This document shows positions 8,536 to 45,509 of a stretch of 64,000 nt of DNA, piece after piece. The translations under genes and the position numbers were made by a program. The notes under the pieces were generated by a model. The model ran no database searches. It was not told the origin of the DNA and saw only the letters and a program-made list of their open reading frames with translations. The stretch is from Siphonodentalium dalli (taxonomy: Eukaryota; Mollusca; Scaphopoda; Gadilida; Siphonodentaliidae). The stretch spans positions 128,531,989 through 128,595,988 of the forward strand of contig CP136068.1 of assembly GCA_032622095.1 (NCBI GenBank). Reading direction: 5' to 3'. Within the stretch, counting starts at the first letter, position 1, and every line of letters starts with the position of its first letter.

Positions 8536-8539
8536 GTCA

Positions 8540-10750: not shown

Positions 10751-10765
10751 TATTGGTTCTACTTT

Positions 10766-12731: not shown

Positions 12732-12834
12732 TGGTCGTTCTGTTGGGTAAAGGGTTAAGGATATGGATAGCCTAAAGTCATCAGGGCATACGACAGTAAG
12801 TCTATCTGACATAGAATCGTCAGCCTACTTGGAT

Positions 12835-13290: not shown

Positions 13291-13424
13291 AGCTATAATG
13301 GACAGTTATTATCACAGCTGTGAGCCTATATGCGCAGTCATTCTCTAAGAAGGAGAGTCCTTTTGTACCAGTCTGAGTGAATGAACTCGTCTGTTTTACC
13401 TCATGACAGACTGTCTTGAACAGA

Positions 13425-14100: not shown

Positions 14101-14138
14101 CCAGTTCGATAGATAGTCTGTCACAAATAGCAGGGTAA

Positions 14139-14350
14139 TTACTTTCAGTGCCCAGTCCGATTTTTGTATCAACCCATATTTCCTTGATCATTTTTCAAAT
14201 TTATTGATTATAATAATGTGATACATTGATGGAAAGAGCTATAAGAGCTGTTTCCATCAATGTATCACATTATTATAAACAATAAATTTGAAAAATGATC
14301 AAGGAAATATGGGTTGATACAAAATTCGGACTTGGCACTGAAAGGGTTAA
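14139..14350. mobile_element. ~210-bp foldback element ending in TTAA
   Basis: The arms 14142-14235 and 14257-14346 are reverse complements (CTTTCAGTGCCCAGTCCGA against TCGGACTTGGCACTGAAAG, then TTTGTATCAACCCATATTTC and GATCATTTTTCAAATTTATTG with the matching right sequence). The loop holds AGAGCTATAAGAGCT. The right end is AAAGGG-TTAA (14341-14350); the left end is altered. CCCTTTCAGTGCC termini with TTAA suggest a piggyBac-like MITE. Confidence 0.75.
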
Positions 14351-15935
14351 AGCAAAGATTATGTCATTGTCAGCCAACCATATAATTTACACGCAACTAT
14401 CTTCCGATTGGCTCATTTCAGATTTGCCGCGAGTTGCAATTGGCTGACACTGTCCCAGACTGTCGTTGCACTATATTAACATCAAATTATATGACATCCT
14501 GCATGGTCCTCCAAACAAATACAGACACGTGGTTATATACTGTATCTATAGGGTGAAGGGACCCGTATAATGCAGTCCGACCACCATGTCCGGCATTCGA
14601 TCGGAAACGACTCAACAACTGAATTGCACACCTGACAAGCACTGATAATTCGTCGGACCACCAGATAGGGCTTCGCGGTTTTTCGGTATTTAGTCATACC
14701 GCGGTTTTATTTTTAATACCGTGTAGTCGGTCGGTATTGGATTACGTGAATAGTCGGCATATCGCCGCAAACTATAATTTCTTCTTTTATTCGGTTTTAC
14801 AACAGCAAACGTCAAAAAACTTGACATAATCCGAGGAAATAACGCGTGCTTGTAAGTAATGAACGAGAAATATGTATGCTGCGCCGTGTGTAAACTGGAC
14901 ATTCCATGGTCACCACGGCGGATTCCAGCCAGTTTCCAACTGATGTCGGTCCAAAATTTTGACAAAAAAGCACGAGAATATGCCACTTTTATCATGAAAA
15001 AAACAATTGTTTACAAAGTCAAACAATGACAACAACTGCAACCCATTTTTTATGTGAAATATGAATATCTAACTGTTGACACTTTTGAAAATATTGGAAC
15101 TAAGATATCCAAAATTGGGAATTAAACAACCAAAACCAACTGTCATCATCACATCCCTGCCCGATCGCATGGATATGTGTTATCTGGCTCCGCCTCGGAA
15201 ATCAGGGAAAGAAAAGTATCTTAAACTATATTTATATACGAGGCCAAATGTACTGAAATTAACACCGCTTTTCAGAACCCATGACGAGAACATATTCAGA
15301 AAATAGTATCATTCATTCGAAATGTGCCACAAGTAATATAATCTGAGTCCTCTTGAGGCTTAATTCATACAGCTAAAATGCATACCCAACTACCAAACAC
15401 GATGCCAATAACCCAGAACACAATAACAATAACACTATATGTATATATCAGACCAATCTAATTATATACATATATATGAATATACTATTTATATATACAA
15501 CTTACATTTGCTTTAATACATGTATGCCACTGATTACAATATATTTTCTGTCGTATCTATCTTGATGATCAGAATATTAATATTCTTAATTGAAATTGAA
15601 TCGAGGTACTAATTATCTATGTCCCATTGCGCCATGTTATCTTTGTTTTCTCAATGAAAATAAAAATATGATGCATCGCTTGGATGTGGCAAAATACACC
15701 CGTGGTTTGTCCCAAATGAAGACACGAACAAAGGGCCATCTCACGTGATGGTGCAAAGAGAGAGCTCAAAATCAAACTCAGCATCAGTGCTCAACAAAGG
15801 GCCATAACTCTAGTGAAAATTAGCGTAGCGGACGGCCGGGTCGACCAATATCAAAATAGGCCCCGTTTTGTTTTAAACCGGCGTATAAATGAGTCTCGGT
15901 GTACATTGTACCTCCGATAACTTATAATGTACTCA
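14351..15935. other. No gene supported left of the satellite
   Basis: Open frames at 14995-14690 (minus) and 15076-15306 (plus) have no recognisable motif. ATACCG and CCGCGGTTTT motifs repeat near 14670-14740. Two copies of AAAGGGCCAT (15730 and 15797), the second reading AAAGGGCCATAACTCTAGTG, resemble dispersed intronic sequence I associate with lophotrochozoan genomes. I looked here for a continuation of the minus-strand gene seen right of the array and found no convincing exon. Confidence 0.4.
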
Positions 15936-16890
15936 ACCTTATTGCTCTGACCCACTGTCGAGAGCTGTTATTACTGATATTCACCTTATTGCTCTGACCT
16001 ACTGTCGAGAGCTGTTATTACTGATATTCACCTTGTTGCTCTGACCCACTGTCGAGAGCTGTTATTACTGATATTCACCTTATTGCTCTGACCTACTGTC
16101 GAGAGCTGTTATTACTGATGTTCACCTTGTTGCTCTGACCCACTGTCGAGAGCTGTTATTACTGATGTTCACCTTGTTGCTCTGACCCACTGTCGAGAGC
16201 TGTTATTACTGATGTTCACCTTGTTGCTCTGACCCACTGTCGAGAGCTGTTATTACTGTTGTTCACCTTATTGCTCTGACCCACTGTCGAGAGCTGAAAT
16301 TACTGATGTTCACCTTATTGCTATGATCCACTGTCGCAAGCTGCTATTACTGATGTTCACCTTATTGGTCCGACCCACTGTCGGGAGCTGTTATTACTGA
16401 TGTTCACCTTATTGCTCTGACCCACTGTCGAGAGCTGTTATTACTGATATTCACCTTATTGCTCTGACCCACTGTCGAGAGCTGTTATTACTGATATTCA
16501 CCTTATTGCTCTGACCCACTGTCGAGAGCTGTTATTACTGATATTCACCTTATTGCTCTGACCCACTGTCGAGAGCTGTTATTACTGATATTCACCTTAT
16601 TGCTCTGACCCACTGTCGAGAGCTGTTATTACTGATATTCACCTTATTGCTCTGACCCACTGTCGAGAGCTGTTATTACTGATGTTCACCTTATTGCTCT
16701 GACCCACTGTCGAGAGCTGTTATTACTGATATTCACCTTATTGCTCTGACCCACTGTCGAGAGCTGTTATTACTGATATTCACCTTATTGCTCTGACCCA
16801 CTGTCGAGAGCTGTTATTATTGATGTTCACCTTATTGCTCTGACCCACTGTCGAGAGCTGTTATTACTGATATTCACCTTATTGCTCTGA

Positions 16891-19800
16891 CCCACTATTG
16901 AGAGCTGTTATTACTGATATTCACCTTCCTGCTCTGACCCACTGTCGAGAGCTGTTATGACTGATATTCACCTTATTGCTCTGACCCACTGTCGGGAGCT
17001 GTTATTACTGATATTCACCTTATTGCTCTGACCCACTGTCGAGAGCTGTTATTACTGATATTCACCTTATTGCTCTGACCCACTAACGGGAGCTGATATT
17101 ACTGATGTTCACCTTATTGCTCTGACCCACTGTCGAGAGCTGTTATTACTGATATTCACCTTATTGCTCTGACCAACTGTCGAGAGCTGTTATTACTAAT
17201 ATTCACCTTATTGCTCTGACCCACTGTCGAGAGCTGTTCTTACTGATATTCACCTTATTGCTCTGACCCACTGTCGAGAGCTGTTATTACTGATGTTCAC
17301 CTTATTGCTCTGACCCACAGTCGAGAGCTGTTATTACTGATATTCACCTTATTGCTCTGACCCACTGTCGAGAGCTGTTATTACTGATATTCACCTTATT
17401 GATCTGACCCACTGTCGAGAGCTGTTATTACTGATATTCACATTATTGCTCTGACCCACTGTCGGGAGCTGTTATTACTGATATTCACCTTATTGCTCTG
17501 ACCCGCTGTCGGGAGCTGTTATTACTGATATTCACCGTATTGCTCTGACCCACTATCGGGAGCTGTTATTAATGATGTTCACCTTATTACTCTGACCCAC
17601 TGTCGAGGGCTGTTATTACTGATATTCACCTTATTGCTCTGACCCACTGTCGAGAGCTGTTATTACTGATGTTCACCTTATTGCTCTGACCCACTGTCGA
17701 TAGCTGTTATTACTGATATTCACCTTATTGCTCGGACCCACTGTCGAGAGCTGTTATTACTGATATTCACCTTATTGCTCTGACCCACTGTCGGGAGCTG
17801 TTATTACTGATGTTCACCTTATTGCTCTGACCCACTGTCGAGAGCTGTTATTACTGATATTCACCTTATTGCTCTGACCCACTGTCGAGAGCTGTTATTA
17901 CTGATATTCACCTTATTGCTCTGATCCACCGTCGAGAGCTGTTGTTACTGATATTCACCTTATTGCTCTGACCCACTGTCGAGAGCTGTTATTACTGATA
18001 TTCACCTTATTGCTCTGACCCACTGTCGAGAGCTGTTATTACTGATATTCACCTTATTGCTCTGATCCACCGTCGAGAGCTGTTGTTACTGATATTCACC
18101 TTATTGCTCTGACCCACTGTCGAGAGCTGTTATTACTGATATTCACCTTATTGCTCTGACCCACTGTCGAGAGCTGTTATTACTGATGTTCACCTTATTG
18201 CTCTGACCCACTGTCGAGAGCTGTTATTACTGATGTTCACCTTATTGCTCTGACCCACTGTCGAGAGCTGTTATTACTGATATTCACCTTATTGCTCTGA
18301 CCCACTGTCGAGAGCTGTTGTTACTGATATTCACCTTATTGCTCTGACCCACTGTCGAGGGCTGTTATTACTGATATTCACCTTATTGCTCTAACCCACT
18401 GTCGAGAGCTGTTATTACTGATGTTCACCTTATTGCTCTGACCCACTGTCGAGAGCTGTTATTACTGATATTCACCTTATTGCTCTGACCCACTGTCGAG
18501 AGCTGTTATTACTGATGTTCACCTTATTGCTCTGACCCACTGTCGGGAGCTGTTATTACTGATGTTCACCTTATTGCTCTGACCCACTATTGAGAGCTGT
18601 TATTACTGATATTCACCTTCCTGCTCTGACCCACTGTCGAGAGCTGTTATGACTGATATTCACCTTGTTGCTCTGACCCACTGTCGGGAGCTGTTATTAC
18701 TGATATTCACCTTATTGCTCTGACCCACTGTCGAGAGCTGTTATTACTGATATTCACCTTATTGCTCTGACCCACTAACGGGAGCTGATATTACTGATGT
18801 TCACCTTATTGCTCTGACCCACTGTCGAGAGCTGTTATTACTGATATTCACCTTATTGCTCTGACCAACTGTCGAGAGCTGTTATTACTAATATTCACCT
18901 TATTGCTCTGACCCACTGTCGAGAGCTGTTCTTACTGATATTCACCTTATTGCTCTGACCCACTGTCGAGAGCTGTTATTACTGATGTTCACCTTATTGC
19001 TCTGACCCACAGTCGAGAGCTGTTATTACTGATATTCACCTTATTGCTCTGACCCACTGTCGAGAGCTGTTATTACTGATATTCACCTTATTGATCTGAC
19101 CCACTGTCGAGAGCTGTTATTACTGATATTCACATTATTGCTCTGACCCACTGTCGGGAGCTGTTATTACTGATATTCACCTTATTGCTCTGACCCACTG
19201 TCGGGAGCTGTTATTACTGATATTCACCGTATTGCTCTGACCCACTATCGGGAGCTGTTATTAATGATGTTCACCTTATTACTCTGACCCACTGTCGAGG
19301 GCTGTTATTACTGATATTCACCTTATTGCTCTGACCCACTGTCGAGAGCTGTTATTACTGATGTTCACCTTATTGCTCTGACCCACTGTCGAGAGCTGTT
19401 ATTACTGATATTCACCTTATTGCTCGGACCCACTGTCGAGAGCTGTTATTACTGATATTCACCTTATTGCTCTGACCCACTGTCGGGAGCTGTTATTACT
19501 GATGTTCACCTTATTGCTCTGACCCACTGTCGAGAGCTGTTATTACTGATATTCACCTTATTGCTCTGACCCACTGTCGAGAGCTGTTATTACTGATATT
19601 CACCTTATTGCTCTGATCCACCGTCGATAGCTGTTGTTACTGATATTCACCTTATTGCTCTGACCCACTGTCGAGAGCTGTTATTACTGATATTCACCTT
19701 ATTGCTCTGACCCACTGTCGAGAGCTGTTATTACTGATATTCACCTTATTGCTCTGATCCACCGTCGAGAGCTGTTGTTACTGATATTCACCTTATTGCT

Positions 19801-22800
19801 CTGACCCACTGTCGAGAGCTGTTATTACTGATATTCACCTTATTGCTCTGACCCACTGTCGAGAGCTGTTATTACTGATGTTCACCTTATTGCTCTGACC
19901 CACTGTCGAGAGCTGTTATTACTGATGTTCACCTTATTGCTCTGACCCACTGTCGAGAGCTGTTATTACTGATATTCACCTTATTGCTCTGACCCACTGT
20001 CGAGAGCTGTTGTTACTGATATTCACCTTATTGCTCTGACCCACTGTCGAGGGCTGTTATTACTGATATTCACCTTATTGCTCTAACCCACTGTCGAGAG
20101 CTGTTATTACTGATGTTCACCTTATTGCTCTGACCCACTGTCGAGAGCTGTTATTACTGATATTCACCTTATTGCTCTGACCCACTGTCGAGAGCTGTTA
20201 TTACTGATGTTCACCTTATTGCTCTGACCCACTGTCGGGAGCTGTTATTACTGATGTTCACCTTATTGCTCTGACCCACTGTCGAGAGCTGTTATTACTG
20301 ATATTCACCTTATTGCTCTGACCCACTGTCGAGAGCTGTTATTACTGATATTCACCTTATTACTCTGACCTACTGTCGAGAGCAGTTATTACTGATGTTC
20401 ACCTTATTTCTCTGACCCACTGTCGAGAGCTGTTATTACTGATGTTCACCTTATTGCTCTGACCCACTGTCGAGAGCTGTTATTACTGATGTTCACCTTA
20501 TTACTCTGACCCACTGTCGAGAGCTGTTATTACTGATATTCACCTTATTGCTCTGACCCACCGTCGAGAGCTGTTATTACTGATATTCACCTTATTTCTC
20601 TGACCCACCGTCGAGAGCTGTTATTACTGATATTCACCTTATTGCTCTGACCCACTGTCGAGAGCTGTTGTTACTGATATTCACCTTATTGCTCTGACCC
20701 ACTGTCGAGGGCTGTTATTACTGATATTCACCTTATTGCTCTAACCCACTGTCGAGAGCTGTTATTACTGATGTTCACCTTATTGCTCTGACCCACTGTC
20801 GAGAGCTGTTATTACTGATATTCACCTTATTGCTCTGACCCACTGTCGAGAGCTGTTATTACTGATGTTCACCTTATTGCTCTGACCCACTGTCGGGAGC
20901 TGTTATTACTGATGTTCACCTTATTGCTCTGACCCACTATTGAGAGCTGTTATTACTGATATTCACCTTCCTGCTCTGACCCACTGTCGAGAGCTGTTAT
21001 GACTGATATTCACCTTGTTGCTCTGACCCACTGTCGGGAGCTGTTATTACTGATATTCACCTTATTGCTCTGACCCACTGTCGAGAGCTGTTATTACTGA
21101 TATTCACCTTATTGCTCTGACCCACTAACGGGAGCTGATATTACTGATGTTCACCTTATTGCTCTGACCCACTGTCGAGAGCTGTTATTACTGATATTCA
21201 CCTTATTGCTCTGACCAACTGTCGAGAGCTGTTATTACTAATATTCACCTTATTGCTCTGACCCACTGTCGAGAGCTGTTCTTACTGATATTCACCTTAT
21301 TGCTCTGACCCACTGTCGAGAGCTGTTATTACTGATGTTCACCTTATTGCTCTGACCCACAGTCGAGAGCTGTTATTACTGATATTCACCTTATTGCTCT
21401 GACCCACTGTCGAGAGCTGTTATTACTGATATTCACCTTATTGATCTGACCCACTGTCGAGAGCTGTTATTACTGATATTCACATTATTGCTCTGACCCA
21501 CTGTCGGGAGCTGTTATTACTGATATTCACCTTATTGCTCTGACCCACTGTCGGGAGCTGTTATTACTGATATTCACCGTATTGCTCTGACCCACTATCG
21601 GGAGCTGTTATTAATGATGTTCACCTTATTACTCTGACCCACTGTCGAGGGCTGTTATTACTGATATTCACCTTATTGCTCTGACCCACTGTCGAGAGCT
21701 GTTATTACTGATGTTCACCTTATTGCTCTGACCCACTGTCGAGAGCTGTTATTACTGATATTCACCTTATTGCTCGGACCCACTGTCGAGAGCTGTTATT
21801 ACTGATATTCACCTTATTGCTCTGACCCACTGTCGGGAGCTGTTATTACTGATGTTCACCTTATTGCTCTGACCCACTGTCGAGAGCTGTTATTACTGAT
21901 ATTCACCTTATTGCTCTGACCCACTGTCGAGAGCTGTTATTACTGATATTCACCTTATTGCTCTGATCCACCGTCGATAGCTGTTGTTACTGATATTCAC
22001 CTTATTGCTCTGACCCACTGTCGAGAGCTGTTATTACTGATATTCACCTTATTGCTCTGACCCACTGTCGAGAGCTGTTATTACTGATATTCACCTTATT
22101 GCTCTGATCCACCGTCGAGAGCTGTTGTTACTGATATTCACCTTATTGCTCTGACCCACTGTCGAGAGCTGTTATTACTGATATTCACCTTATTGCTCTG
22201 ACCCACTGTCGAGAGCTGTTATTACTGATGTTCACCTTATTGCTCTGACCCACTGTCGAGAGCTGTTATTACTGATGTTCACCTTATTGCTCTGACCCAC
22301 TGTCGAGAGCTGTTATTACTGATATTCACCTTATTGCTCTGACCCACTGTCGAGAGCTGTTGTTACTGATATTCACCTTATTGCTCTGACCCACTGTCGA
22401 GGGCTGTTATTACTGATATTCACCTTATTGCTCTAACCCACTGTCGAGAGCTGTTATTACTGATGTTCACCTTATTGCTCTGACCCACTGTCGAGAGCTG
22501 TTATTACTGATATTCACCTTATTGCTCTGACCCACTGTCGAGAGCTGTTATTACTGATGTTCACCTTATTGCTCTGACCCACTGTCGGGAGCTGTTATTA
22601 CTGATGTTCACCTTATTGCTCTGACCCACTGTCGAGAGCTGTTATTACTGATATTCACCTTATTGCTCTGACCCACTGTCGAGAGCTGTTATTACTGATA
22701 TTCACCTTATTACTCTGACCTACTGTCGAGAGCAGTTATTACTGATGTTCACCTTATTTCTCTGACCCACTGTCGAGAGCTGTTATTACTGATGTTCACC

Positions 22801-23002
22801 TTATTGCTCTGACCCACTGTCGAGAGCTGTTATTACTGATGTTCACCTTATTACTCTGACCCACTGTCGAGAGCTGTTATTACTGATATTCACCTTATTG
22901 CTCTGACCCACCGTCGAGAGCTGTTATTACTGATATTCACCTTATTTCTCTGACCCACCGTCGAGAGCTGTTATTACTGATATTCACCTTATTGCTCTGA
23001 CC
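16891..23002. repeat. Higher-order repeat block 1 of the satellite (36- and 50-monomer periods)
   Basis: The rare variant CCCACTATTGAGAGC followed by ACCTTCCTGC occurs at 16891, 18583 and 20933. The spacings are 1,692 bp (36 x 47) and 2,350 bp (50 x 47). Neighbouring rare variants (CACTAACGGG, GCTGTTCTTACTG, CCACAGTCG, ATCCACCGTCGATAGC) follow in the same order. Segments 18301-20650 and 20651-23000 are an essentially exact 50-monomer tandem duplication; similarity stops near 23003. The 36-monomer copy lacks 14 monomers present in the other two. Confidence 0.9.
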
Positions 23003-24599
23003 CACCGTCGAGAGCTGTTATTACTGATATTCACCTTATTGCTCTGACCCATTGTCGAGAGCTGTTATTACTGATGTTCACCTTATTGCTCGGACCCACT
23101 GTCGAGAGCTGTTATTACTGATATTCACCTTATTGCTCTGACCCACCGTCGAGAGCTGTTATTACTGATATTCACCTTATTGCTCTGACCCACTGTCGAG
23201 AGCTGTTATTACTGATGTTCACCTTATTGCTCTGACCCACTGTCGAGAGCTGTTATTACTGATGTTCACCTTACTGCTCTGACCCACTGTCGAGAGCTGT
23301 TATTACTGATGTTCACCTTACTGTTCTGACCCACTGTCGAGAGCTGTTATTAATGATGTTCACCTTATTGCTCTGACACACTGTCGAGAGCTGTTATTAC
23401 TGATGTTCACCTTACTGCTCTGACCCACTGTCGAGAGCTGTTATTACTGATGTTCACCTTACTGCTCTGACCCACTGTCGAGAGCTGTTATTACTGATGT
23501 TCACCTTACTGTTCTGACCCACTGTCGAGAGCTGTTATTACTGATGTTCACCTTATTGCTCTGACCCACTGTCGGGAGCTGTTATTACTGATGTTCACCT
23601 TACTGCTCTGATCCACCGCCGAGAGCTGTTATTACTGATATTCACCTTATTGCTCTGACCCACTGTCGAGAGCTGTTATTACTGATGTTCACCTTATTGC
23701 GCTGACCCACTGTCGAGAGCTGTTATTACTGATATTCACCTTATTGCTCTGACCCACTGTCGAGAGCTGTTATTAATGATGTTCACATTATTGCTCTGAC
23801 ACACTGTCGAGAGCTGTTATTACTGATGTTCACCTTATTGCTCTGACACACTGTCGAGAGCTGTTATTACTGATGTTCACCGTATTGCTCTGACCCATTG
23901 TCGAGAGCTGTTATTACTGATGTTCACCTTATTTCTCGGACCCACTGTCGAGAGCTGTTATTAATGACGTTCACCTTATTGCTCGGACCCACTGTCGAGA
24001 TATGTTATTACTGATATTCACCTTATTGCTCTGATCCACTGCCGAGAGCTGTTATTACTGATGTTCACCTTATTGCTCTGACCCATTGTCGAGAGCTGTT
24101 ATAACTGATATTCACCTTATTGCTCTGACCCACTGCCGAGAGCTGTTATTACTGATATTCACCTTATTGCGCTGACCCACTGTCGAGAGCTGTTATTACT
24201 GATATTCACCTTATTGCGCTGACCCACTGTCGAGAGCTGTTATTACTGATATTCACCTTATTGCTCGGACCCACCGTCGAGAGCTGTTATTACTGATATT
24301 CACCTTATTGCTCTGATCCACCGCCGAGAGCTGTTATTACTGATATTCACCTTATTGCTCTGACCCACTGTCGATAGCTGATATTACTGATATTCACCGT
24401 ATTGCTCTGACCCACTGTCGAGAGCTGTTATTACTGATATTCACCTTATTGTGCTGACACACTGTCGGGAGCTGTTATTACTGATGTTCACCTTATTGCT
24501 CTGATCCACCGCCGAGAGCTGTTATTACTGATGTTCACCTTATTGCTCTGACCCACTGCCGAGAGCTGTTATTACTGATATTCACCTTATTTCTCTGAC

Positions 24600-27500
24600 C
24601 CACTGTCGGGAGCTGTTATTACTGATATTCACCTTATTGCTCTGACCCACTGTCGATAGCTGTTATTACTGATATTCACCGTATTGCTCTGACCCACTGT
24701 CGAGAGCTGTTATTACTGATATTCACCTTATTGCTCTGATCCACCGCCGAGAGCTGTTATTACTGATGTTCACCTTATTGCTCTGACCCACTGCCGAGAG
24801 CTGTTATTACTGATATTCACCTTATTGCGCTGACCCACTGTCGAGAGCTGTTATTACTGATATTCACCTTATTGCGCTGACCCACTGTCGAGAGCTGTTA
24901 TTACTGATATTCACCTTATTGCTCGGACCCACCGTCGAGAGCTGTTATTACTGATATTCACCTTATTGCTCTGATCCACCGCCGAGAGCTGTTATTACTG
25001 ATATTCACCTTATTGCTCTGACCCACTGTCGAGAGCTGTTATTACTGATATTCACCTTATCGCGCTGACACACTGTCGGGAGCTGTTATTACTGATATTC
25101 ACCTTATCGCGCTGACACACTGTCGAGAGCTGTTATTACTGATATTCTCCTTATTGCTCTGATCCACCGTCGAGAGCTGTTATAACTGATATTCACCTTA
25201 TTGCTCTGACCCACTGTCGAGAGCTGTTATTACTGATATTCACCTTATTGCTCTGATCCACTGTCGAGAGCTGTTATTACTGATATTCACCTTATTGCTC
25301 TGACCCACTGTCGAGAGCTGTTATTACTGATGTTCACCTTATTGCTCTGACCCACTGCCGAGAGCTGTTATTACTGATATTCACCTTATTGCTCTGACCC
25401 ACTGTCGAGAGCTGTTATTACTGATGTTCACCTTATTGCTCTGACCCACTGCCGAGAGCTGTTATTACTGATATTCACCTTATTGCTCTGACCCACTGTC
25501 GGGAGCTGTTATTACTGATATTCACCTTATCGCGCTGACACACTGTCGAGAGCTGTTATTACTGATATTCTCCTTATTGCTCTGATCCACCGTCGAGAGC
25601 TGTTATAACTGATATTCACCTTATTGCTCTGACCCACTGTCGAGAGCTGTTATTACTGATATTCACCTTATTGCTCTGATCCACCGCCGAGAGCTGTTAT
25701 TACTGATATTCACCTTATTGCTCTGACCCACTGTCGAGAGCTGTTATTACTGATATTCACCTTATTGCTCTGACCCACTGTCGAGAGCTGTTATTACTGA
25801 TATTCACCTTATTGCTCTGACACACTGTCGAGAGCTGTTATTACTGATGTTCACCTTATTGCTCTGACCCACTGTCGAGAGCTGTTATTACTGATGTTCA
25901 CCTTATTGCTCTAACCCACTGTCGAGAGCTGTTATTACTGATGTTCACCTTATTGCTCTGACCCACTGTCGAGAGCTGTTATTACTGATATTCACCTTAT
26001 TGCTCTGACCCACTGTCGGGAGCTGTTATTACTGATATTCACCTTATTGCTCCGACCCACTGTCGAGAGCTGTTATTACTGATATTCACCTTATTGCTCT
26101 GACCCACTGTCGAGAGCTGTTATTACTGATATTCACCTTATTGCTCTGACCCACTGTCGAGAGCTGTTATTACTGATATTCACCTTATTGCTCTGACCCA
26201 CTGTCGAGAGCTGTTATTACTGATGTTCATCTTATTGCTCTGACCCACTGTCGAGAGCTGTTATTACTGATATTCACCTTATTGCTCTGACCCACCGTCG
26301 GGAGCTGTTATTACTGATATTCACCTTATTGCTCTGACCCACTGTCGAGAGCTGTTATTACTGATATTCACCTTATTGCTCTGACCCACTGTCGAGAGCT
26401 GTTATTACTGATATTCACCTTATTGCTCTGACCCACTGTTGAGAGCTGTTATTACTGATATTCACCTTATTGCTCTGACCCACTGTCGGGAGCTGTTATT
26501 ACTGATATTCACCTTATTGCTCTGACCCACTGTCGAGAGCTGTTATTACTGATATTCACCTTATTGCTCTGACCCACTGTCGAGAGCTGTTATTACTGAT
26601 ATTCACCTTATTGCTCTGACCCACTGTCGAGAGCTGTTATTACTGATATTCACCTTATTGCTCTAACCCACTGTCGAGAGCTGTTATTACTGATATTCAC
26701 CTTATTGCTCGGACCCATTGTCGAGAGCTGTTATTACTGATATTCACCTTATTGCTCTGACCCACTGTCGAGAGCTGTTATTACTGATATTCACCTTATT
26801 GCTCTGATCCACTGTCGGGAGCTGTTATTACTGATATTCACCTTATTGCTCTGACCCACTGTCGAGAGCTGTTATTACTGATGTTCACCTTATTGCTCTG
26901 ATCCACTGTCGGGAGCTGTTATTACTGATATTCAGCTTACTGCTCTGACCCACTGTCGGGAGCTGTTATTACTGATATTCACCTTATTGCTCTGACCCAC
27001 TGCCGAGAGCTGTTATTACTGATATTCACCTTATTTCTCTGACCCACTGTCGGGAGCTGTTATTACTGATATTCACCTTATTGCTCTGACCCACTGTCGA
27101 TAGCTGTTATTACTGATATTCACCGTATTGCTCTGACCCACTGTCGAGAGCTGTTATTACTGATATTCACCTTATTGCTCTGATCCACCGCCGAGAGCTG
27201 TTATTACTGATGTTCACCTTATTGCTCTGACCCACTGCCGAGAGCTGTTATTACTGATATTCACCTTATTGCGCTGACCCACTGTCGAGAGCTGTTATTA
27301 CTGATATTCACCTTATTGCGCTGACCCACTGTCGAGAGCTGTTATTACTGATATTCACCTTATTGCTCGGACCCACCGTCGAGAGCTGTTATTACTGATA
27401 TTCACCTTATTGCTCTGATCCACCGCCGAGAGCTGTTATTACTGATATTCACCTTATTGCTCTGACCCACTGTCGAGAGCTGTTATTACTGATATTCACC

Positions 27501-29300
27501 TTATCGCGCTGACACACTGTCGGGAGCTGTTATTACTGATATTCACCTTATCGCGCTGACACACTGTCGAGAGCTGTTATTACTGATATTCTCCTTATTG
27601 CTCTGATCCACCGTCGAGAGCTGTTATAACTGATATTCACCTTATTGCTCTGACCCACTGTCGAGAGCTGTTATTACTGATATTCACCTTATTGCTCTGA
27701 TCCACCGCCGAGAGCTGTTATTACTGATATTCACCTTATTGCTCTGACCCACTGTCGGGAGCTGTTATTACTGATATTCACCTTATCGCGCTGACACACT
27801 GTCGAGAGCTGTTATTACTGATATTCTCCTTATTGCTCTGATCCACCGTCGAGAGCTGTTATAACTGATATTCACCTTATTGCTCTGACCCACTGTCGAG
27901 AGCTGTTATTACTGATATTCACCTTATTGCTCTGATCCACCGCCGAGAGCTGTTATTACTGATATTCACCTTATTGCTCTGACCCACTGTCGAGAGCTGT
28001 TATTACTGATATTCACCTTATTGCTCTGACCCACTGTCGAGAGCTGTTATTACTGATATTCACTTTATTGCTCTGACACACTGTCGAGAGCTGTTATTAC
28101 TGATGTTCACCTTATTGCTCTGACCCACTGTCGAGAGCTGTTATTACTGATGTTCACCTTATTGCTCTAACCCACTGTCGAGAGCTGTTATTACTGATGT
28201 TCACCTTATTGCTCTGACCCACTGTCGAGAGCTGTTATTACTGATATTCACCTTATTGCTCTGACCCACTGTCGGGAGCTGTTATTACTGATATTCACCT
28301 TATTGCTCCGACCCACTGTCGAGAGCTGTTATTACTGATATTCACCTTATTGCTCTGACCCACTGTCGAGAGCTGTTATTACTGATATTCACCTTATTGC
28401 TCTGACCCACTGTCGAGAGCTGTTATTACTGATATTCACCTTATTGCTCTGACCCACTGTCGAGAGCTGTTATTACTGATGTTCATCTTATTGCTCTGAC
28501 CCACTGTCGAGAGCTGTTATTACTGATATTCACCTTATTGCTCTGACCCACCGTCGGGAGCTGTTATTACTGATATTCACCTTATTGCTCTGACCCACTG
28601 TCGAGAGCTGTTATTACTGATATTCACCTTATTGCTCTGACCCACTGTCGAGAGCTGTTATTACTGATATTCACCTTATTGCTCTGACCCACTGTTGAGA
28701 GCTGTTATTACTGATATTCACCTTATTGCTCTGACCCACTGTCGGGAGCTGTTATTACTGATATTCACCTTATTGCTCTGACCCACTGTCGAGAGCTGTT
28801 ATTACTGATATTCACCTTATTGCTCTGACCCACTGTCGAGAGCTGTTATTACTGATATTCACCTTATTGCTCTGACCCACTGTCGAGAGCTGTTATTACT
28901 GATATTCACCTTATTGCTCTAACCCACTGTCGAGAGCTGTTATTACTGATATTCACCTTATTGCTCTGACCCATTGTCGAGAGCTGTTATTACTGATATT
29001 CACCTTATTGCTCTGACCCACTGTCGAGAGCTGTTATTACTGATATTCACCTTATTGCTCTGATCCACTGTCGGGAGCTGTTATTACTGATATTCACCTT
29101 ATTGCTCTGACCCACTGTCGAGAGCTGTTATTACTGATGTTCACCTTATTGCTCTGATCCACTGTCGGGAGCTGTTATTACTGATATTCAGCTTACTGCT
29201 CTGACCCACTGTCGGGAGCTGTTATTACTGATATTCACCTTATTGCTCTGATCCACTGTCGGGAGCTGTTATTACTGATATTCACCTTATTGCTCTGACC
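24600..29300. repeat. Higher-order repeat block 2 (52/48-monomer period)
   Basis: CGCGCTGACACACTGTCGGG is at 25061 and 27505, and CACCGTATTG is at 24677 and 27121; both spacings are 2,444 bp (52 x 47). Further right, GTTCATCTTATTGC is at 26225 and 28481, a spacing of 2,256 bp (48 x 47), so the second copy lost four monomers. Variants such as ATATTCTCC and GCTGTTATAAC occur in the same order in both copies. Confidence 0.9.
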
Positions 29301-29859
29301 CACTGCCGAGAGATGTTATTACTGATATTCAACTTATTGCTCTGACCCACTGTCGGGAGCTGTTATTACTTTACTGATATTCACCTTATTGCTCTGATCC
29401 ACTGTCGGGAGCTGTTATTACTGATATTCAGCTTACTGCTCTGACCCACTGCCGAGAGCTGTTATGACTGATATTCACCTTATTGCTCTGACCCACTGTC
29501 GGGAGCTGTTATTACTGATATTCACCTTATTGCTCTGACCCACTGTCGAGAGCTGTTATTACTGATATTCAACTTATTGCTCTGACCCACTGTCGGGAGC
29601 TGTTATTACTGATGTTCAACTTATTGCTCTGACCCACTGTCGAGAGCTGTTATTACTGATATTCACCTTATTGCTCTGACCCACTGTCGAGAGCTGTTAT
29701 TACTGATATTCATCTTATTGCTCTGATCCACTGTCGAGAGCTGTTATTACTGATATTCACCTTATTGCTCTGATCCACCGTCGAGAGCTGTTATTACTGA
29801 TGTTCACCTTGTTGCTGTGACCCACTGTCGAGAGCTGTTATTACTGATGTTCACCTTAT

Positions 29860-31520
29860 CGCGCTGACACACTGTCGAGACCTGTTATTACTGATATTCA
29901 CCTTATTGCTCTGACCCACTGTCGAGAGCTGTTATTACTGATATTCATCTTATTGCTCTGATCCACTGTCGAGAGCTGTTATTACTGATATTCATCTTAT
30001 TGCTCTGATCCACTGTCGAGAGCTGTTATTACTGATATTCACCTTATTGCTCTGACCCACTGTCGAGAGCTGTTATTACTGATATTCACCTTATTGCTCT
30101 GACCCACTGTCGAGAGCTGTTATTACTGATATTCACCTTATTGCTCTGACCCACTGTCGAGGGCTGTTATTACTGATATTCACCTTATTGCTCTGACCCA
30201 CTGTCGAGAGCTGTTATTACTGATGTTCACCTTATCGCGCTGACACACTGTCGAGAGCTGTTATTACTGATATTCACCTTATTGCTCTGATCCACTGTCG
30301 AGAGCTGTATTTAACTGATATTCACCTTATTGCTCTGACCCACTGTCGAGGGCTGTTATTACTGATATTCACCTTATTGCTCTGACCCACTGTCGAGAGC
30401 TGTTATTACTGATGTTCACCTTATCGCGCTGACACACTGTCGAGAGCTGTTATTACTGATATTCACCTTATTGCTCTGACCCACTGTCGAGAGCTGTTAT
30501 TACTGATATTCATCTTATTGCTCTGATCCACTGTCGAGAGCTGTTATTACTGATATTCATCTTATTGCTCTGACCCACTGTCGAGGGCTGTTATTACTGA
30601 TATTCACCTTATTGCTCTGACCCACTGTCGAGGGCTGTTATTACTGATATTCATCTTATTGCTCTGATCCACTGTCGAGAGCTGTTATTACTGATATTCA
30701 TCTTATTGCTCCGACCCACTGTCGAGGGCTGTTATTACTGATATTCACCTTATTGCTCTGATCCACTGTCGAGAGCTGTTATTACTGATATTCATCTTAT
30801 TGCTCTGACCCACTGTCGAGAGCTGTTATTACTGATATTCACCTTATTGCTCTGACCCACTGTCGAGGGCTGTTATTACTGATATTCACCTTATTGCTCT
30901 GACCCACTGTCGAGAGCTGTTATTACTGATGTTCACCTTATCGCGCTGACACACTGTCGAGAGCTGTTATTACTGATATTCACCTTATTGCTCTGACCCA
31001 CTGTCGAGAGCTGTTATTACTGATATTCACCTTATTGCTCTGACCCACTGTCGAGGGCTGTTATTACTGATATTCACCTTATTGCTCTGACCCACTGTCG
31101 AGAGCTGTTATTACTGATGTTCACCTTATCGCGCTGACACACTGTCGAGAGCTGTTATTACTGATATTCACCTTATTGCTCTGACCCACTGTCGAGGGCT
31201 GTTATTACTGATATTCACCTTATTGCTCTGACCCACTGTCGAGAGCTGTTATTACTGATGTTCACCTTATCGCGCTGACACACTGTCGAGAGCTGTTATT
31301 ACTGATGTTCACCTTATTGCTCTGATCCACTGTCGAGTGCTGTTATTACTGATATTCATCTTATTGCTCTGATCCACTGTCGAGAGCTGTTATTACTGAT
31401 ATTCACCTTATTGCTCTGACCCACTGTCGAGGGCTGTTATTACTGATATTCACCTTATTGCTCTGACCCACTGTCGAGAGCTGTTATTACTGATGTTCAC
31501 CTTATCGCGCTATCACACTG
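29860..31520. repeat. Local cluster of CGCGCTGACACAC monomers
   Basis: The variant starts at 29860, 30236, 30425, 30942, 31130, 31271 and 31506. Intervals are 8, 4 (+1 bp), 11, 4, 3 and 5 monomers. The extra base comes from a 48-bp monomer near 30310 (GCTGTATTTAACTG). The spread of one variant at short irregular intervals indicates repeated local unequal exchange or slippage. Confidence 0.8.
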
Positions 31521-33429
31521 TCGAGAGCTGTTATTACTGATATTCACCTTATTGCTCTGACCCACTGTCGAGAGCTGTTATTACTGATATTCACCTTATT
31601 GCTCTGACCCACTGTCGAGAGCTGTTATTACTGATGTTCACCTTATTGCTCTGATCCACTGTCGGGAGCTGTTATTACTGATATTCACCTTATTGCTCTG
31701 ACCCACTGTCGAGAGCTGTTATTACTGATATTCACCTTATTGCTCTGACCCACTGTCGAGAGCTGTTATTACTGATGTTCACCTTATTGCTCTGACCCAC
31801 TGTCGGGAGCTGTTATTACTGATATTCACCTTATTGCTCTGACCCACTGTCGAGAGCTGTTATTACTGATATTCACCTTATTGCTCTGACCCACTGTCGA
31901 GAGCTGTTATTGCTGATATTCACCTTATTGCTCTGATCCACTGTCGGGAGCTGTTATTACTGATATTCACCTTATTGCTCTGACCCACTGTCGAGAGCTG
32001 TTATTACTGATGTTCACCTTATTGCTCTGACCCACTGTCGGGAGCTGTTATTACTGATATTCACCTTATTGCTCTGACCCACTGTCGGGAGCTGTTATTA
32101 CTGATGTTCACCTTATTGCTCTGACCCACTGTCGAGAGCTGTTATTACTGATGTTCACCTTATTGCTCTGACCCACTGTCGAGAGCTGTTATTACTGATG
32201 TTCACCTTATTACTCTGACCCACTGTCGAGAGCTGTTATTACTGATATTCACCTTATTGCTCTGACCCACTGTCGGGAGCTGTTATTACTGATGTTCACC
32301 TTATTGCTCTGACCCACTGTCGAGAGCTGTTATTACTGATATTCACCTTATTACTCTGACCCACTATCGAGAGCTGTTATTACTGATATTCACCTTATTA
32401 CTCTGACCCACTGTCGAGAGCTGTTATTACTGATATTCACCTTATTGCTCTGACCCACTGTCGGGAGCTGTTATTACTGATATTCACCTTATTGCTCTGA
32501 CCCACTGTCGATAGCTGTTAATACTGATATTCACCTTATTGCTCTGACCCACTGTCGGGAGCTGTTATTACTTATGTTCACCTTATTGTTCTGACCCACT
32601 GTCGAGAGCTGTTATTACTTATGTTCACCTTATTGCTCTGACCCACTGTCGAGAGCTGTTATTACTGATATTCACCTTATTGCTCGGACCCACTGTCGAG
32701 AGCAGTTATTACTGATATTCACCGTATTGCTCTGACTCACTGTCGAGAGCTGTTATTACTGATATTCACCTTATTGCTCGGACCCACTGTCGAGAGCAGT
32801 TATTACTGATATTCACCTTGTTGCTCTGACCCACTGTCGGGAGCTGTTATTACTGATATTCACCTTATTGCTCTGACCCACTGTCGGGAGCTGTTATTAC
32901 TGGTATTCACCTTATTGCTCTGACCCACTGTCGAGAGCTGTTATTACTGATATTCACCTTATTGCTCTGACCCACTGTCGAGAGCTGTTATTACTGATAA
33001 TCACCTTATTGCTCTGACCCACTGTCGAGAGCTGTTATTACTGATATTCACCGTATTGCTCTGACCCACTGTCGAGAGCTGTTATTACTGATATTCACCT
33101 TATTGCTCTGACCCACTGTCGAGAGCTGTTATTACTGATATTCACCTTATTGCTCTGACCCACTGCCGAGAGCTGTTATTACTGATATTCACCTTATTGC
33201 TCTGACCCACTGTCGAGAGATGTTATTACTGATATTCACCTTATTGCTCTGACCCACTGTCGAGAGCTGTTATTACTGATATTCACCTTATTGCTCTGAC
33301 CCACTGTCGAGAGCTGTTATTACTGATATTCACCTTATTGCTCTGACCCACTGTCGAGAGCTGTTATTACTGATATTCACCGTATTGCTCTGACCCACTG
33401 TCGAGAGCTGTTATTACTGATGTTCACCT

Positions 33430-34150
33430 TATTGCTCGGACCCACTGTCGAGAGCTGTTATTACTGATATTCACCTTATTGCTCCGACCCACTGTCGAGA
33501 GCTGTTATTACTGATATTCACCTTATTGCTCTGACCCACTGTCGAGAGCTGTTATTACTGATATTCACCTTATTACTCTGACCCACTATCGAGAGCTGTT
33601 ATTACTGATGTTCACCTTATTGCTCGGACCCACTGTCGAGAGCTGTTATTACTGATATTCACCTTATTGCTCGGACCCACTGTCGAGAGCTGTAATTACT
33701 GATGTTCACCTTATTGCTCTGACCCACTGTCGAGATCTGTTATTACTGATATTCACCTTATTGCTCGGACCCACTGTCGAGAGCTGTAATTACTGATGTT
33801 CACCTTATTGCTCGGACCCACTGTCGAGAGCTGTTATTACTGATGTTCACCTTATTGCTCGGACCCACTGTCGAGAGCTGTTATTACTGATATTCACCTT
33901 ATTGCTCGGACCCACTGTCGAGAGCTGTAATTACTGATATTCACCTTATTGCTCGGACCCACTGTCGAGAGCTGTAATTACTGATGTTCACCTTATTGCT
34001 CTGACCCACTGTCGAGATCTGTTATTACTGATATTCACCTTATTGCTCGGACCCACTGTCGAGAGCTGTAATTACTGATGTTCACCTTATTGCTCGGACC
34101 CACTGTCGAGAGCTGTTATTACTGATGTTCACCTTATTGCTCGGACCCAC
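33430..34150. repeat. Satellite sub-block rich in CGGACCC monomers
   Basis: Most monomers here carry CTCGGACCC instead of CTCTGACCC, often paired with GCTGTAATTACTG; the pair is rare elsewhere. Within the block a sub-unit with GAGATCTG recurs at about 33733 and 34013. It marks another locally homogenised segment. Confidence 0.75.
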
Positions 34151-36329
34151 TGTCGAGAGCTGTTATTACTGATATTCACCTTATTGCTCTGACCCACTGT
34201 CGAGGGCTGTTATTACTGATATTCACCTTATTGCTCTGATCCACTGTCGAGAGCTGTTATTACTGATATTCACCTTATTGCTCTGACCCACTGTCGAGAG
34301 CTGTTATTACTGATATTCACCTTATTGCTCTGACCCACTGTCGAGAGCTGTTATTACTGATATTCACCTTATTACTCTGACCTACTGTCGGGAGCTGTTA
34401 TTACTGATATTCACCTTATTGCTCTGACCCACTGCCGAGGCTGTTATTACTGATATTCACCTTATTGCTCTGACCCACTGTCGGGAGCTGTTATTACTGA
34501 TATTCACCTTATTGCTCTGACCCACTGTCGAGAGCTGTTATTACTGATATTCACCTTATTGCTCTGACACACTGTCGAGAGCTGTTATTACTGATATTCA
34601 CCTTATTGCTCTGACACACTGTCGAGAGCTGTTATTACTGATATTCACCTTATTGCTCTGACCCACTGTCGGGAGCTGTTATTACTGATATTCACCTTAT
34701 TGCTCTGACCCACTGTCGAGAGGTGTTATTACTGATATTCACCTTATTGCTCTGACCCACTGTCGAGAGCTGTTATTACTGATATTCACCTTATTGCTCT
34801 GACCCACTGTCGAGAGCTGTTATTACTGATATTCACCTTATTGCTCTGACCCACTGTCGAGAGCTGTTATTACTGATATTCACCTTATTGCTCTGACCCA
34901 CTGTCGAGAGCTGTTATTACTGATATTCACCTTATTGCTCTGACCCACTGTCGAGAGCTGTTATTACTGATGTTCACCGTATTGCTCTGACCCACTGTCG
35001 GGAGCTGTTATTACTGATGTTCACCGTATTGCTCTGACCCACTGTCGAGAGCTGTTATTACTGATATTCACCTTATTGCTCTGATCCACTGTCGAGAGGT
35101 GTTATTACTGATATTCACCTTATTGCTCTGACCCACTGTCGAGAGCTGTTATTACTGATATTCACCTTATTGCTCTGATCCACTGTCGAGAGCTGTTATT
35201 ACTGATATTCACCTTATTGCTCTGATCCACTGTCGAGGGCTGTTATTACTGATATTCACCTTATTGCTCTGACCCACTGTCGAGAGCTGTTATTACTGAT
35301 ATTCACCTTATTGCTCTGACCCACTGTCGAGAGCTGTTATTACTGATATTCACCTTATTGCTCTGACACACTGTCGAGAGCTGTTATTACTGATATTCAC
35401 CTTATTGCTGACACACTGTCGAGAGCTGTTATTACTGATATTCACCTTATTGCTCTGACCCACTGTCGAGAGCTGTTATTACTGATATTCACCTTATTGC
35501 TCTGACCCACTGTCGAGAGCTGTTATTACTGATATTCACCTTATTGCTCTGACCCACTGTCGAGAGCTGTTATTACTGGTATTCACCTTATTGCTCTGAC
35601 CCACTGTCGGGAGCTGTTATTACTGATATTCACCTTATTGCTCTGACCCACTGTCGAGAGCTGTTATTACTGATATTCACCTTATTGCTCTGACCCACTG
35701 TCGGGAGCTGTTATTACTGATATTCACCTTATTGCTCTGACCCACTGTCGAGAGTTGTTATTACTGATATTCACCTTATTGCTCTGACCCACTGTCGAGA
35801 GCTGTTATTACTGATATTCACCTTATTGCTCTGACCCACTGTCGAGAGCTGTTATTACTGATATTCACCTTATTGCTCTGATCCACCGTCGAGAGCTGTT
35901 ATTACTGATATTCACCTTATTGCTCTGATCCATCGTCTAGAGCTGTTATTACTGATATTCACCTTATTGCTCTGACCCACTGTCGAGAGCTGTTATTACT
36001 GATATTCACCTTATTGCTCTGACCCACTGTTGAGAGCTGTTATTACTGATATTCACCTTATTGCTCTGACCCACTGTCGAGAGCTGTTATTACTGATATT
36101 CACCTTATTGATCTGATCCACTGTCGAGAGCTGTTATTACTGATATTCACCTTATTGCTCTGATCCACTGTCGAGAGCTGTTATTACTGATATTCACCTT
36201 ATTGATCTGACCCACTGTCGAGAGCTGTTATTACTGATGTTCACCTTATTGCTCGGACCCACTGTCGAGAGCTGTTATTACTGATGTTCACCTTATTGCT
36301 CGGACCCACTGTCGAGAGCTGTTATTACT

Positions 36330-39300
36330 GATGTTCACCTTATTGCTCTGACACACTGTCGAGAGCTGTTATTACTGATGTTCACCTTATTGCTCCGACA
36401 CACTGTCGAGAGCTGTTATTACTGATGTTCACCTTATTGATCTGACCCACTGTCGAGAGCTGTTATTACTGATGTTCACCTTATTGCTCTGACCCACTGT
36501 CGAGAGCTGTTATTACTGATGTTCACCTTATTGCTCGGACCCACTGTCGAGAGCTGTTATTACTGATATTCACCTTATTGCTCTGACCCACTGTCGAGAG
36601 CTGTTATTACTGATATTCACCTTATTGCTCTGACCCACTGTCGAGAGCTGTTATTACTGATATTCACCGTATTGCTCTGACCCACTGTCGAGAGCTGTTA
36701 TTACTGATGTTCACCTTATTGCTCGGACCCACTGTCGAGAGCTGTTATTACTGATATTCACCTTATTGCTCTGACCCACTGTCGAGAGCTGTTATTACTG
36801 ATATTCACCTTATTGATCTGACCCACTGTCGAGAGCTGTTATTACTGATATTCACCTTATTGCTCTGACCCACTGTCGGGAGCTGTTATTACTGATATTC
36901 ACCTTATTGCTCTGACCCACTGTCGGGAGCTGTTATTACTGATATTCACCTTATTGCTCTGATCCACTGTCGAGAGCTGTTATTACTGATATTCACCTTA
37001 TTGCTCTGACCCACTGTCGAGAGCTGTTATTACTGATATTCACCTTATTGCTCTGACCCACTGTCGAGAGCTGTTATTACTGATATTCACCTTATTGCTC
37101 TGACCCACTGTCGAGAGCTGTTATTACTGATATTCACCTTATTGCTCTGATCCACTGTCGAGAGCTGTTATTACTGATATTCACCTTATTGCACTGACCC
37201 ACTGTCGAGAGTTGTTATTACTGATATTCACCTTATTGCTCTGACCCACTGTCGGGAGCTGTTATTACTGATGTTCACCTTATTGCACTGACCCACTGTC
37301 GAGAGCTGTTATTACTGATATTCACCTTATTGCTCTGATCCACTGTCGAGAGCTGTTATTACTGATATTCACCTTATTGCTCTGACCCACTGTCGAGAGC
37401 TGTTATTACTGATATTCACCTTATTGATCTGACCCACTGTCCAGAGCTGTTATTACTGATATTCACCTTATTGATCTGACCCACTGTCGAGAGCTGTTAT
37501 TACTGATATTCACCTTATTGCTCTGACCCACTGTCGAGAGCTGTTATTACTGATATTCACCTTATTGCTCTGACCCACTGTTGAGAGCTGTTATTACTGA
37601 TATTCACCTTATTGCTCTGACCCACTGTCGAGAGCTGTTATTACTGATATTCACCTTATTGCTCTCACCCACTGTCGGGAGCTGTTATTACTGATGTTCA
37701 CCTTAATGCACTGACCCACTGTCGAGAGCTGTTATTACTGATATTCACCTTATTGCTCTGATCCACCGTCGAGAGCTGTTATTACTGATATTCACCTTAT
37801 TGCTCTGACCCACTGTCGAGAGCTGTTATTACTGATATTCACCTTATTGCTCTGACCCACTGTCGAGAGCTGTTATTACTGATATTCACCTTATGGCTCT
37901 GACCTACTGTCGAGGGCTGTTATTACTGATATTCACCTTATTGCTCTGACCCACTGTCGAGAGCTGTTATTACTGATATTCACCTTATTGCTCTGACCCA
38001 CTGTCGAGAGCTGTTATTACTGATATTCACCTTATTGCTCTGACCCACTGTCGAGAGCTGTTATTACTGATATTCACCTTATTGCTCTGACCCACTGTCG
38101 AGAGCTGTTATTACTGATATTCACCTTATTGCTCTGACCCACTGTCGGGAGCTGTTATTACTGATGTTCACCTTATTGCTCTGACCCACTGTCGGGAGCT
38201 GTTATTACTGATGTTCACCTTATTGCACTGACCCACTGTCGAGAGCTGTTATTACTGATATTCACCTTATTGCTCTGATCCACCGTCGAGAGCTGTTATT
38301 ACTGATATTCACCTTATTGCTCTGATCCATCGTCGAGAGCTGTTATTACTGATATTCACCTTATTGATCTGACCCACTGTCGAGAGCTGTTATTACTGAT
38401 ATTCACCTTATTGCTCTGACCCACTGTCGAGAGCTGTTATTACTGATGTTCACCTTATTGCTCTGATCCACTGTCGAGAGCTGTTATTACTGATATTCAC
38501 CTTATTGCTCTGACCCACTGTCGAGAGCTGTTATTACTGATATTCGCCTTATTGCTCTGATCCACTGTCGAGAGCTGTTATTACTGATGTTCACCTTATT
38601 GCTCTGACACACTGTCGAGAGCTGTTATTACTGATATTCACCTTATTGCTCTGATCCACTGTCGAGAGCTGTTATTACTGATATTCATCTTATTGCTCTG
38701 ACCCACTGTCGAGAGCTGTTATTACTGATATTCATCTTATTGCTCTGATCCACTGTCGAGAGCTGTTATTACTGATATTCATCTTATTGCTCTGACCCAC
38801 TGTCGAGAGCTGTTATTACTGATATTCGCCTTATTGCTCTGATCCACTGTCGAGAGCTGTTATTACTGATGTTCACCTTATTGCTCTGACACACTGTCGA
38901 GAGCTGTTATTACTGATATTCACCTTATTGCTCTGATCCACTGTCGAGAGCTGTTATTACTGATATTCACCTTATTGCTCTGACCCACTGTCGAGAGCTG
39001 TTATTACTGATATTCGCCTTATTGCTCTGATCCACTGTCGAGAGCTGTTATTACTGATGTTCACCTTATTGCTCTGACACACTGTCGAGAGCTGTTATTA
39101 CTGATGTTCACCTTATTGCTCCGACACACTGTCGAGAGCTGTTATTACTGATGTTCACCTTATTGATCTGACCCACTGTCGAGAGCTGTTATTACTGATG
39201 TTCACCTTATTGCTCTGACCCACTGTCGAGAGCTGTTATTACTGATGTTCACCTTATTGCTCGGACCCACTGTCGAGAGCTGTTATTACTGATATTCACC

Positions 39301-41240
39301 TTATTGCTCTGACCCACTGTCGAGAGCTGTTATTACTGATATTCACCTTATTGCTCTGACCCACTGTCGAGAGCTGTTATTACTGATATTCACCGTATTG
39401 CTCTGACCCACTGTCGAGAGCTGTTATTACTGATGTTCACCTTATTGCTCGGACCCACTGTCGAGAGCTGTTATTACTGATATTCACCTTATTGCTCTGA
39501 CCCACTGTCGAGAGCTGTTATTACTGATATTCACCTTATTGATCTGACCCACTGTCGAGAGCTGTTATTACTGATATTCACCTTATTGCTCTGACCCACT
39601 GTCGGGAGCTGTTATTACTGATATTCACCTTATTGCTCTGACCCACTGTCGGGAGCTGTTATTACTGATATTCACCTTATTGCTCTGATCCACTGTCGAG
39701 AGCTGTTATTACTGATATTCACCTTATTGCTCTGACCCACTGTCGAGAGCTGTTATTACTGATATTCACCTTATTGCTCTGACCCACTGTCGAGAGCTGT
39801 TATTACTGATATTCACCTTATTGCTCTGACCCACTGTCGAGAGCTGTTATTACTGATATTCACCTTATTGCTCTGATCCACTGTCGAGAGCTGTTATTAC
39901 TGATATTCACCTTATTGCACTGACCCACTGTCGAGAGTTGTTATTACTGATATTCACCTTATTGCTCTGACCCACTGTCGGAGCTGTTATTACTGATGTT
40001 CACCTTATTGCACTGACCCACTGTCGAGAGCTGTTATTACTGATATTCACCTTATTGCTCTGATCCACTGTCGAGAGCTGTTATTACTGATATTCACCTT
40101 ATTGCTCTGACCCACTGTCGAGAGCTGTTATTACTGATATTCACCTTATTGATCTGACCCACTGTCGAGAGCTGTTATTACTGATATTCACCTTATTGAT
40201 CTGACCCACTGTCGAGAGCTGTTATTACTGATATTCACCTTATTGCTCTGACCCACTGTCGAGAGCTGTTATTACTGATATTCACCTTATTGCTCTGACC
40301 CACTGTTGAGAGCTGTTATTACTGATATTCACCTTATTGCTCTGATCCACTGTCGAGAGCTGTTATTACTGATATTCACCTTATTGCTCTCACCCACTGT
40401 CGGGAGCTGTTATTACTGATGTTCACCTTATTGCACTGACCCACTGTCGAGAGCTGTTATTACTGATATTCACCTTATTGCTCTGATCCACCGTCGAGAG
40501 CTGTTATTACTGATATTCACCTTATTGCTCTGACCCACTGTCGAGAGCTGTTATTACTGATATTCACCTTATTGCTCTGACCCACTGTCGAGAGCTGTTA
40601 TTACTGATGTTCACCTTATTGCACTGACCCACTGTCGAGAGCTGTTATTACTGATATTCACCTTATTGCTCTGACCTACTGTCGAGGGCTGTTATTACTG
40701 ATATTCACCTTATTGCTCTGACCCACTGTCGAGAGCTGTTATTACTGATATTCACCTTATTGCTCTGACCCACTGTCGAGAGCTGTTATTACTGATATTC
40801 ACCTTATTGCTCTGACCCACTGTCGAGAGCTGTTATTACTGATATTCACCTTATTGCTCTGACCCACTGTCGAGAGCTGTTATTACTGATATTCACCTTA
40901 TTGCTCTGACCTACTGTCGAGGGCTGTTATTACTGATATTCACCTTATTGCTCTGACCCACTGTCGGGAGCTGTTATTACTGATGTTCACCTTATTGCAC
41001 TGACCCACTGTCGAGAGCTGTTATTACTGATATTCACCTTATTGCTCTGATCCACCGTCGAGAGCTGTTATTACTGATATTCACCTTATTGCTCTGATCC
41101 ATCGTCGAGAGCTGTTATTACTGATATTCACCTTATTGATCTGACCCACTGTCGAGAGCTGTTATTACTGATATTCACCTTATTGCTCTGACCCACTGTC
41201 GAGAGCTGTTATTACTGATATTCACCTTATTGCTCTGACC
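36330..41240. repeat. Higher-order repeat block 3 (58-monomer period)
   Basis: CTCCGACACACTGTCGAGAG is at 36393 and 39119, and GCACTGACCC followed by GAGTTGTTATT is at 37191 and 39917; both spacings are 2,726 bp (58 x 47). A one-base deletion (CACTGTCGGAGCTG near 39976) and at least one extra monomer shift the register further right. The block reaches the right end of the array. Confidence 0.9.
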
Positions 41241-41355
41241 CACTGTCGAGAGGTGTGATTATTGATGGATTGTTCTGCGTCTTCTTCGTTTATACCGGTC
41301 TTGGATGCTTCTTTGTAGAAATATCGAACAGTCTCCACATCGAATATATCGAGAC
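41225..41355 (-). CDS. Candidate exon of an unrecognised host gene, running into the satellite
   Basis: On the minus strand TTTTAATTTGTCATTATAG is a good 3' splice site ending at 41356. The exon from 41355 begins with two bases that complete a Gly codon from the exon at 43252-43013, and then reads LDIFDVETVRYFYKEASK and an acidic stretch. It continues through the degenerate last satellite monomer to a TGA at 41224-41222. Alternatively it could splice at AAG|GTGAAT (exon end 41226), a donor-like sequence within the monomer, or earlier at GGTATAAAC. The coding-like part is the right two thirds; the last ~15 codons are satellite-derived. The family is not recognised. Confidence 0.55.
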
Positions 41356-43012: not shown

Positions 43013-43252
43013 CTGTCACCCTGAGCCAAGCTTCCAGTCTGTACATCGTCTGGTACATAGACTCAAACGACTTGGAATGTAAACGAACTGGAACGAACAA
43101 CCTGGACGCCAGTTCGACGTTATTGTAGGCGACCTTCGATGACGTATCCGTGACGAAAAATATCCTGATCGCCCGCACTTGCTTCTCGTTGCTCATCCGG
43201 ATATCCCATTCATCTAAATTCTCTGTATGATATACGGCCGTGCCGGCAAAGT
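43013..43252 (-). CDS. Exon of an unrecognised host gene (240 bp, phase 1-1)
   Basis: Read on the minus strand, ATATATATTTTCAG precedes the exon and GTGACAG|GTAAGT ends it, both strong splice signals. The 240-bp exon is open throughout. It encodes FAGTAVYHTENLDEW near its start, RIFFVTDTSSKVAY in the middle and YQTMYRLEAWLRVT at its end. No transmembrane segment or known catalytic motif is visible. It starts with two bases and ends with one, so it joins in frame both to 45217-45128 (Tyr codon at the join) and to 41355 onward (Gly codon). This is the best-supported coding exon in the window. A short similarity (GTxxY...E and the later R-x(3)-WL) links it to the candidate exon at 51113-50998. 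Confidence 0.7.
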
Positions 43253-45492: not shown

Positions 45493-45509
45493 TAATAATA
45501 TGCTAGCCT

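Follow-up and report, generated by a model that had tools for sequence, protein, structure and literature searches.

The 47-bp array and its flanks

The window (i.e. the whole 64,000-nucleotide stretch analyzed, C8:128531989-128595988 of the Siphonodentalium dalli assembly) carries a tandem array spanning 25.3 kb on contig C8. TRF resolves this array as a 47-bp period in 538.9 copies with 95% matches and 0% indels, and a unit parse separates 539 units, all in a single orientation and without interruption. Unit length is 47 bp in 533 of the 539 units, with the other 6 measuring 43–52 bp. The units fall into 130 sequence types, their mean identity to the consensus is 97.1%, and random pairs within the array are 94.8% identical. 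GC content and skew both shift at the two array ends. The uninterrupted, one-orientation, 25-kb array of 47-bp units described in a first-pass annotation is thereby borne out by both TRF and the unit parse. We reject a coding function for the array, as the longest open stretch in all six frames is 55 codons, and we find no known RNA family at the gathering threshold in the window or in L026.

Table 1. Window coordinates of the array, its duplicated blocks, and its flanks.
Feature	Position	Strand	Evidence
Left flank, inverted-duplication arm	8200..15935	.	Reverse match to C8:128504780-128494839, about 89–93%
47-bp tandem array, 539 units, consensus ACCTTATTGCTCTGACCCACTGTCGAGAGCTGTTATTACTGATATTC	15936..41266	+	TRF, unit parse
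36-unit block, copy 1	16876..18567	+	4 mismatches in 1692; copy 2 = 18568-20259
50-unit block, copy 1	18286..20635	+	2350/2350 identical to 20636-22985
50-unit block, copy 2, adjoining copy 1	20636..22985	+	Diagonal run scores, gapped alignment
36-unit block, further copy	20918-22609		Placed by the later 50-unit event
52-unit block, copy 1	24537..26980	+	Diagonal run scores, gapped alignment
52-unit block, copy 2, net 4 units shorter	26981..29236	+	4 mismatches in 2256
58-unit block (lag 58–59), copy 1	36337..38404	+	9 mismatches in 2068, small indels
58-unit block, copy 2, ending near array right end	39063..41176	+	Gapped alignment
Terminal unit, diagnostic variant GTGATTA	41224..41266	+	Variant comparison of both arrays
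Right flank, same arm, with insertions, past window end	41270..62918	.	Reverse match from C8:128494087 downwards

Block duplications within the array

Runs of shared variant units were scored on every diagonal, with 5 shuffles of the unit order as control, and were then followed by gapped alignment. The main ungapped runs score 107–297 compared with at most 27 in the shuffles, and the alignments resolve four large block events with copies that are 99.6–100% identical head to tail (Table 1). Copies are directly adjacent in the 36-, 50-, and 52-unit pairs, and the blocks share a common whole-unit register. Smaller events are also present, with lags of 5, 6, 14, and 15 units. For the perfect 50-unit pair, the 95% upper bound on divergence is 0.13%.

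The order of some of these events can be read directly. Specifically, the 50-unit event is recent and later than the 36-unit event, because the 50-unit block holds parts of both 36-unit copies together with their junction. The additional lag of 86 units (i.e. 36 + 50) has the same source, as the 50-unit event copied a segment that already held this junction, and the change in lag from 52 to 48 arises because the second 52-unit copy was shortened by 4 units. One stretch is present in three copies, where the 36- and 50-unit duplications overlap; otherwise each block forms one pair.

The spacings of 36, 50, 52 then 48, and 58 units listed in the first-pass annotation are all real, and our results support its view that they arose through recurrent unequal exchanges of large size, or through block duplications, with no single fixed higher-order unit. 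Its description of three independent higher-order systems goes too far: the duplicated blocks exist, but they represent four two-copy tandem duplications, two of them overlapping. The copies have the identity expected between higher-order units, but we find no multi-monomer unit that is repeated many times.

A sister array in an inverted duplication

A second array of 16 units (751 bp) is located about 53 kb upstream on the opposite strand, at C8:128494088-128494838. The two arrays lie in a large, decayed inverted duplication with arms of tens of kilobases: one arm extends from window position 8200 to past the right window end at 64000, its partner runs from C8:128504780 down to at least C8:128467396, and the spacer between them is about 35 kb. 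Where the arms are collinear (pieces totalling 13.8 kb), the substitution distance between them is ~5%, and each side carries many large insertions. Among the scored matches, the parts of the flanks that are not dispersed occur in the two arms only, and the remaining matches are dispersed repeats.

Flanking sequence agrees between the two arrays, in reverse orientation, right up to the junctions (91% left, 95% right). The left junction TACTCA|ACCTTATTG is common to both arrays, and GTGATTA, which the big array has only once, in its final unit, recurs in the final unit of its sister. Because these boundaries and the terminal variant are shared by both arms, the array and its boundaries are older than the inverted duplication. 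Judging from the sequence, the interior of the big copy was reshaped by turnover after that duplication.

Distribution of the monomer in the genome

We searched the 2.23-Gb assembly, which comprises nine contigs. An exact 35-mer is found 208 times in forward and 5 times in reverse orientation, with all 208 forward matches inside the window. Allowing up to 3 mismatches, a 46-mer has 504 forward and 15 reverse matches genome-wide (0 for the reversed control); every forward match is in the window array and every reverse match is in the sister array, with no other close copy at this threshold in the assembly. The only other relative found consists of three ~46-bp units at C7:6332213-6332350 that are 90% identical, and a search for a second locus with this variant returned none. 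The trio sits between two different dispersed repeats, possibly as an older trace of the monomer. We considered an origin from a dispersed repeat on the basis of this position and rejected it, as the units are not found as part of either repeat. In this assembly, the monomer is therefore local and close to confined to a single locus.

A hairpin in the unit

Each unit can fold into a hairpin (GCTCTGAC/GTC-GAGAGC), for which single-stranded DNA folding gives z = -5.05 against shuffled controls. Stem columns carry 1.9 variant types compared with 1.4 elsewhere, so the stem is not less variable than the rest of the unit, and only one compensatory double change is observed in it. Selection on the hairpin is thus not supported, and the hairpin may at most be a physical promoter of instability. 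Human MSY1, a minisatellite with 25-bp hairpin-forming units, offers a precedent for repair-based turnover, and there a hairpin-forming unit combined with constant unit length has been read as secondary structure acting in mutation (PMC2599865).

Probable growth of a minisatellite

Minisatellite units range from 9 to 100 bp (PMC2599865), and their arrays typically span 0.5–30 kb (PMC8122249). With 47-bp units in arrays of 25.3 and 0.75 kb at a discrete locus, both copies fall within these ranges. By size and single locus, the big array belongs to the large end of minisatellites, and calling it a satellite on length alone is a matter of naming. We consider it highly probable that this is a single-locus minisatellite (VNTR-type) that was short before the inverted duplication and grew to 539 units in the window arm. 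A short ancestral array would have predated the duplication of its neighborhood, and in the other arm it would have stayed at 16 units. In the window arm, whole-unit gains would have followed, both small (a few units) and large (at least four of 36–58 units, i.e. 1.7–2.7 kb), leading to about 34-fold growth with the register preserved throughout. Growth in this arm, as opposed to loss in the sister arm, is suggested by the recent large gains visible in the window array.

The nearly constant unit length and the unchanged boundaries point to a pathway operating within the array, either misaligned repair guided by homology or unequal exchange between sister chromatids, and away from insertion. 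The misaligned sister-chromatid repair could have taken the form of unequal exchange or of synthesis-dependent strand annealing, the latter being the preferred pathway at MSY1 (PMC2599865), and the hairpin in each unit may favor breakage or misalignment. It is conceivable, although we rather doubt it, that the two arms amount to a natural experiment in which an arm-specific trigger (in chromatin, in the direction of replication, or through a threshold length) lies behind the kilobase-scale whole-unit gains that separate 16 from 539 units. The array itself appears to have no function.

Like MSY1 and other VNTRs, the array has a unit within 9–100 bp, a discrete locus, variants arranged in blocks, whole-unit changes, and a hairpin-forming unit. 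It differs from MSY1 in size, with 539 units compared with 77 in the allele studied, and in its visible events, which involve 36–58 units and are read from one assembly, compared with steps of 1–3 units in MSY1 mutations (PMC2599865). Near-identical multi-unit blocks that are closer to each other than neighboring units are also a feature of primate alpha satellite higher-order repeats; here, by contrast, each block is one tandem pair, differing block lengths lie side by side, the locus is single, and the units are already 95% alike. For the Ogre-derived satellites of Lathyrus, short and expanded arrays of the same unit are likewise both visible, but retrotransposons spread the short arrays there (PMC7004042), whereas a local inverted duplication made the pair described here.

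Alternative explanations

The length and homogeneity of the array, together with its multi-unit block duplications, are what a satellite with higher-order repeats, centromeric or widespread in some other way, could show, and the first-pass annotation had considered such a role. The genome-wide search makes this extremely improbable. A widespread satellite should be present in many arrays or at megabase-scale abundance, whereas the 504 + 15 close copies all lie in two neighboring arrays, with three diverged units on C7 besides; moreover, the window array is a single locus of 25 kb, confined to one of the 9 contigs, and its blocks occur in two tandem copies (three for one overlapping stretch), not many. 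Restriction of the monomer to one locus had been named in advance as evidence against a widespread satellite, and the assembly comes close to this state, with the sister array and the C7 trio as exceptions.

An assembly artefact, i.e. haplotype mixing or misassembly affecting the array length, the block pairs, or the arms, could turn the 16 and 539 units into two alleles. The block pair that is 100% identical over 2350 bp would fit, as would arm substitutions of ~5%, a level that a highly heterozygous animal might reach. However, the arms stand in inverted orientation with about 35 kb between them, numerous large insertions distinguish them, the block pairs of 1.7–2.7 kb are within long-read span, and the older pairs carry private substitutions. 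We regard an artefact as improbable, and give similarly little credence to a transposon-derived array, in which tandem repeats within a mobile element later expanded, as in plant Ogre elements. Dispersed repeats do lie near the array on either side, at about 15210-15600 of the window on the left and at 41397-41886 on the right, and the diverged C7 units are themselves bordered by such repeats. Among the scored matches, however, members of the dispersed families align with the family part only, excluding both the array-adjacent stretch and the units, and the array-adjacent flank is confined to the two arms.

A link to a gene is very unlikely, barely more credible than a centromeric role. Under this explanation, the units would be tandem copies of an exon end and splice donor from a minus-strand open frame at about 41225-41360. 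Read on the minus strand, this AG-bounded frame does extend into the first unit, which contains AAG|GTGAAT. Between the arms, however, the codon differences in this frame comprise 6 that change the amino acid and 0 silent ones. Searches of Pfam and PDB gave no match, and the genome contains no further copy of the frame. With coding constraint absent between the arms and no homologue found, we reject an exon or splice-donor origin.

The array that we interpret as a grown minisatellite is ordinary in kind, and its history is unusually readable. It provides a clean case of array growth, with a short sister that has the same boundaries, a terminal unit that was kept, and overlapping blocks in a readable order. 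It is therefore a useful test case for models of minisatellite growth to satellite size; it has no bearing on centromere identity.

Other repeats at the locus and beyond

Several other elements are present in the region. A broken non-LTR-like retrotransposon occupies window 53839-56351, with an RVT_1 domain (E 3.6e-19) in the frame at 54167-55222. Nested modules at window 43373-49138 include two direct 835-bp copies (47355-48189 and 48304-49138) that are 99.8% identical, as well as an inverted copy of the same module at 43493-44327 (96.6%). These modules have an internal period of about 173 bp, and nothing in the other arm matches them.

The spacer between the arms contains a second, unrelated minisatellite at C8:128516124-128516555, with a 43-bp unit in 10 copies. 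At C8:128528939-128529153, a degenerate 83-bp repeat resembles C2H2 zinc-finger linkers (HKRIHTGD) on the reverse strand; we looked for an intact zinc-finger pattern in this repeat and found none. Lastly, the dispersed repeat of the right flank recurs every ~7.6–7.9 kb at C3:254764552-254818786, a spacing that suggests a large tandem array distinct from the one described here.
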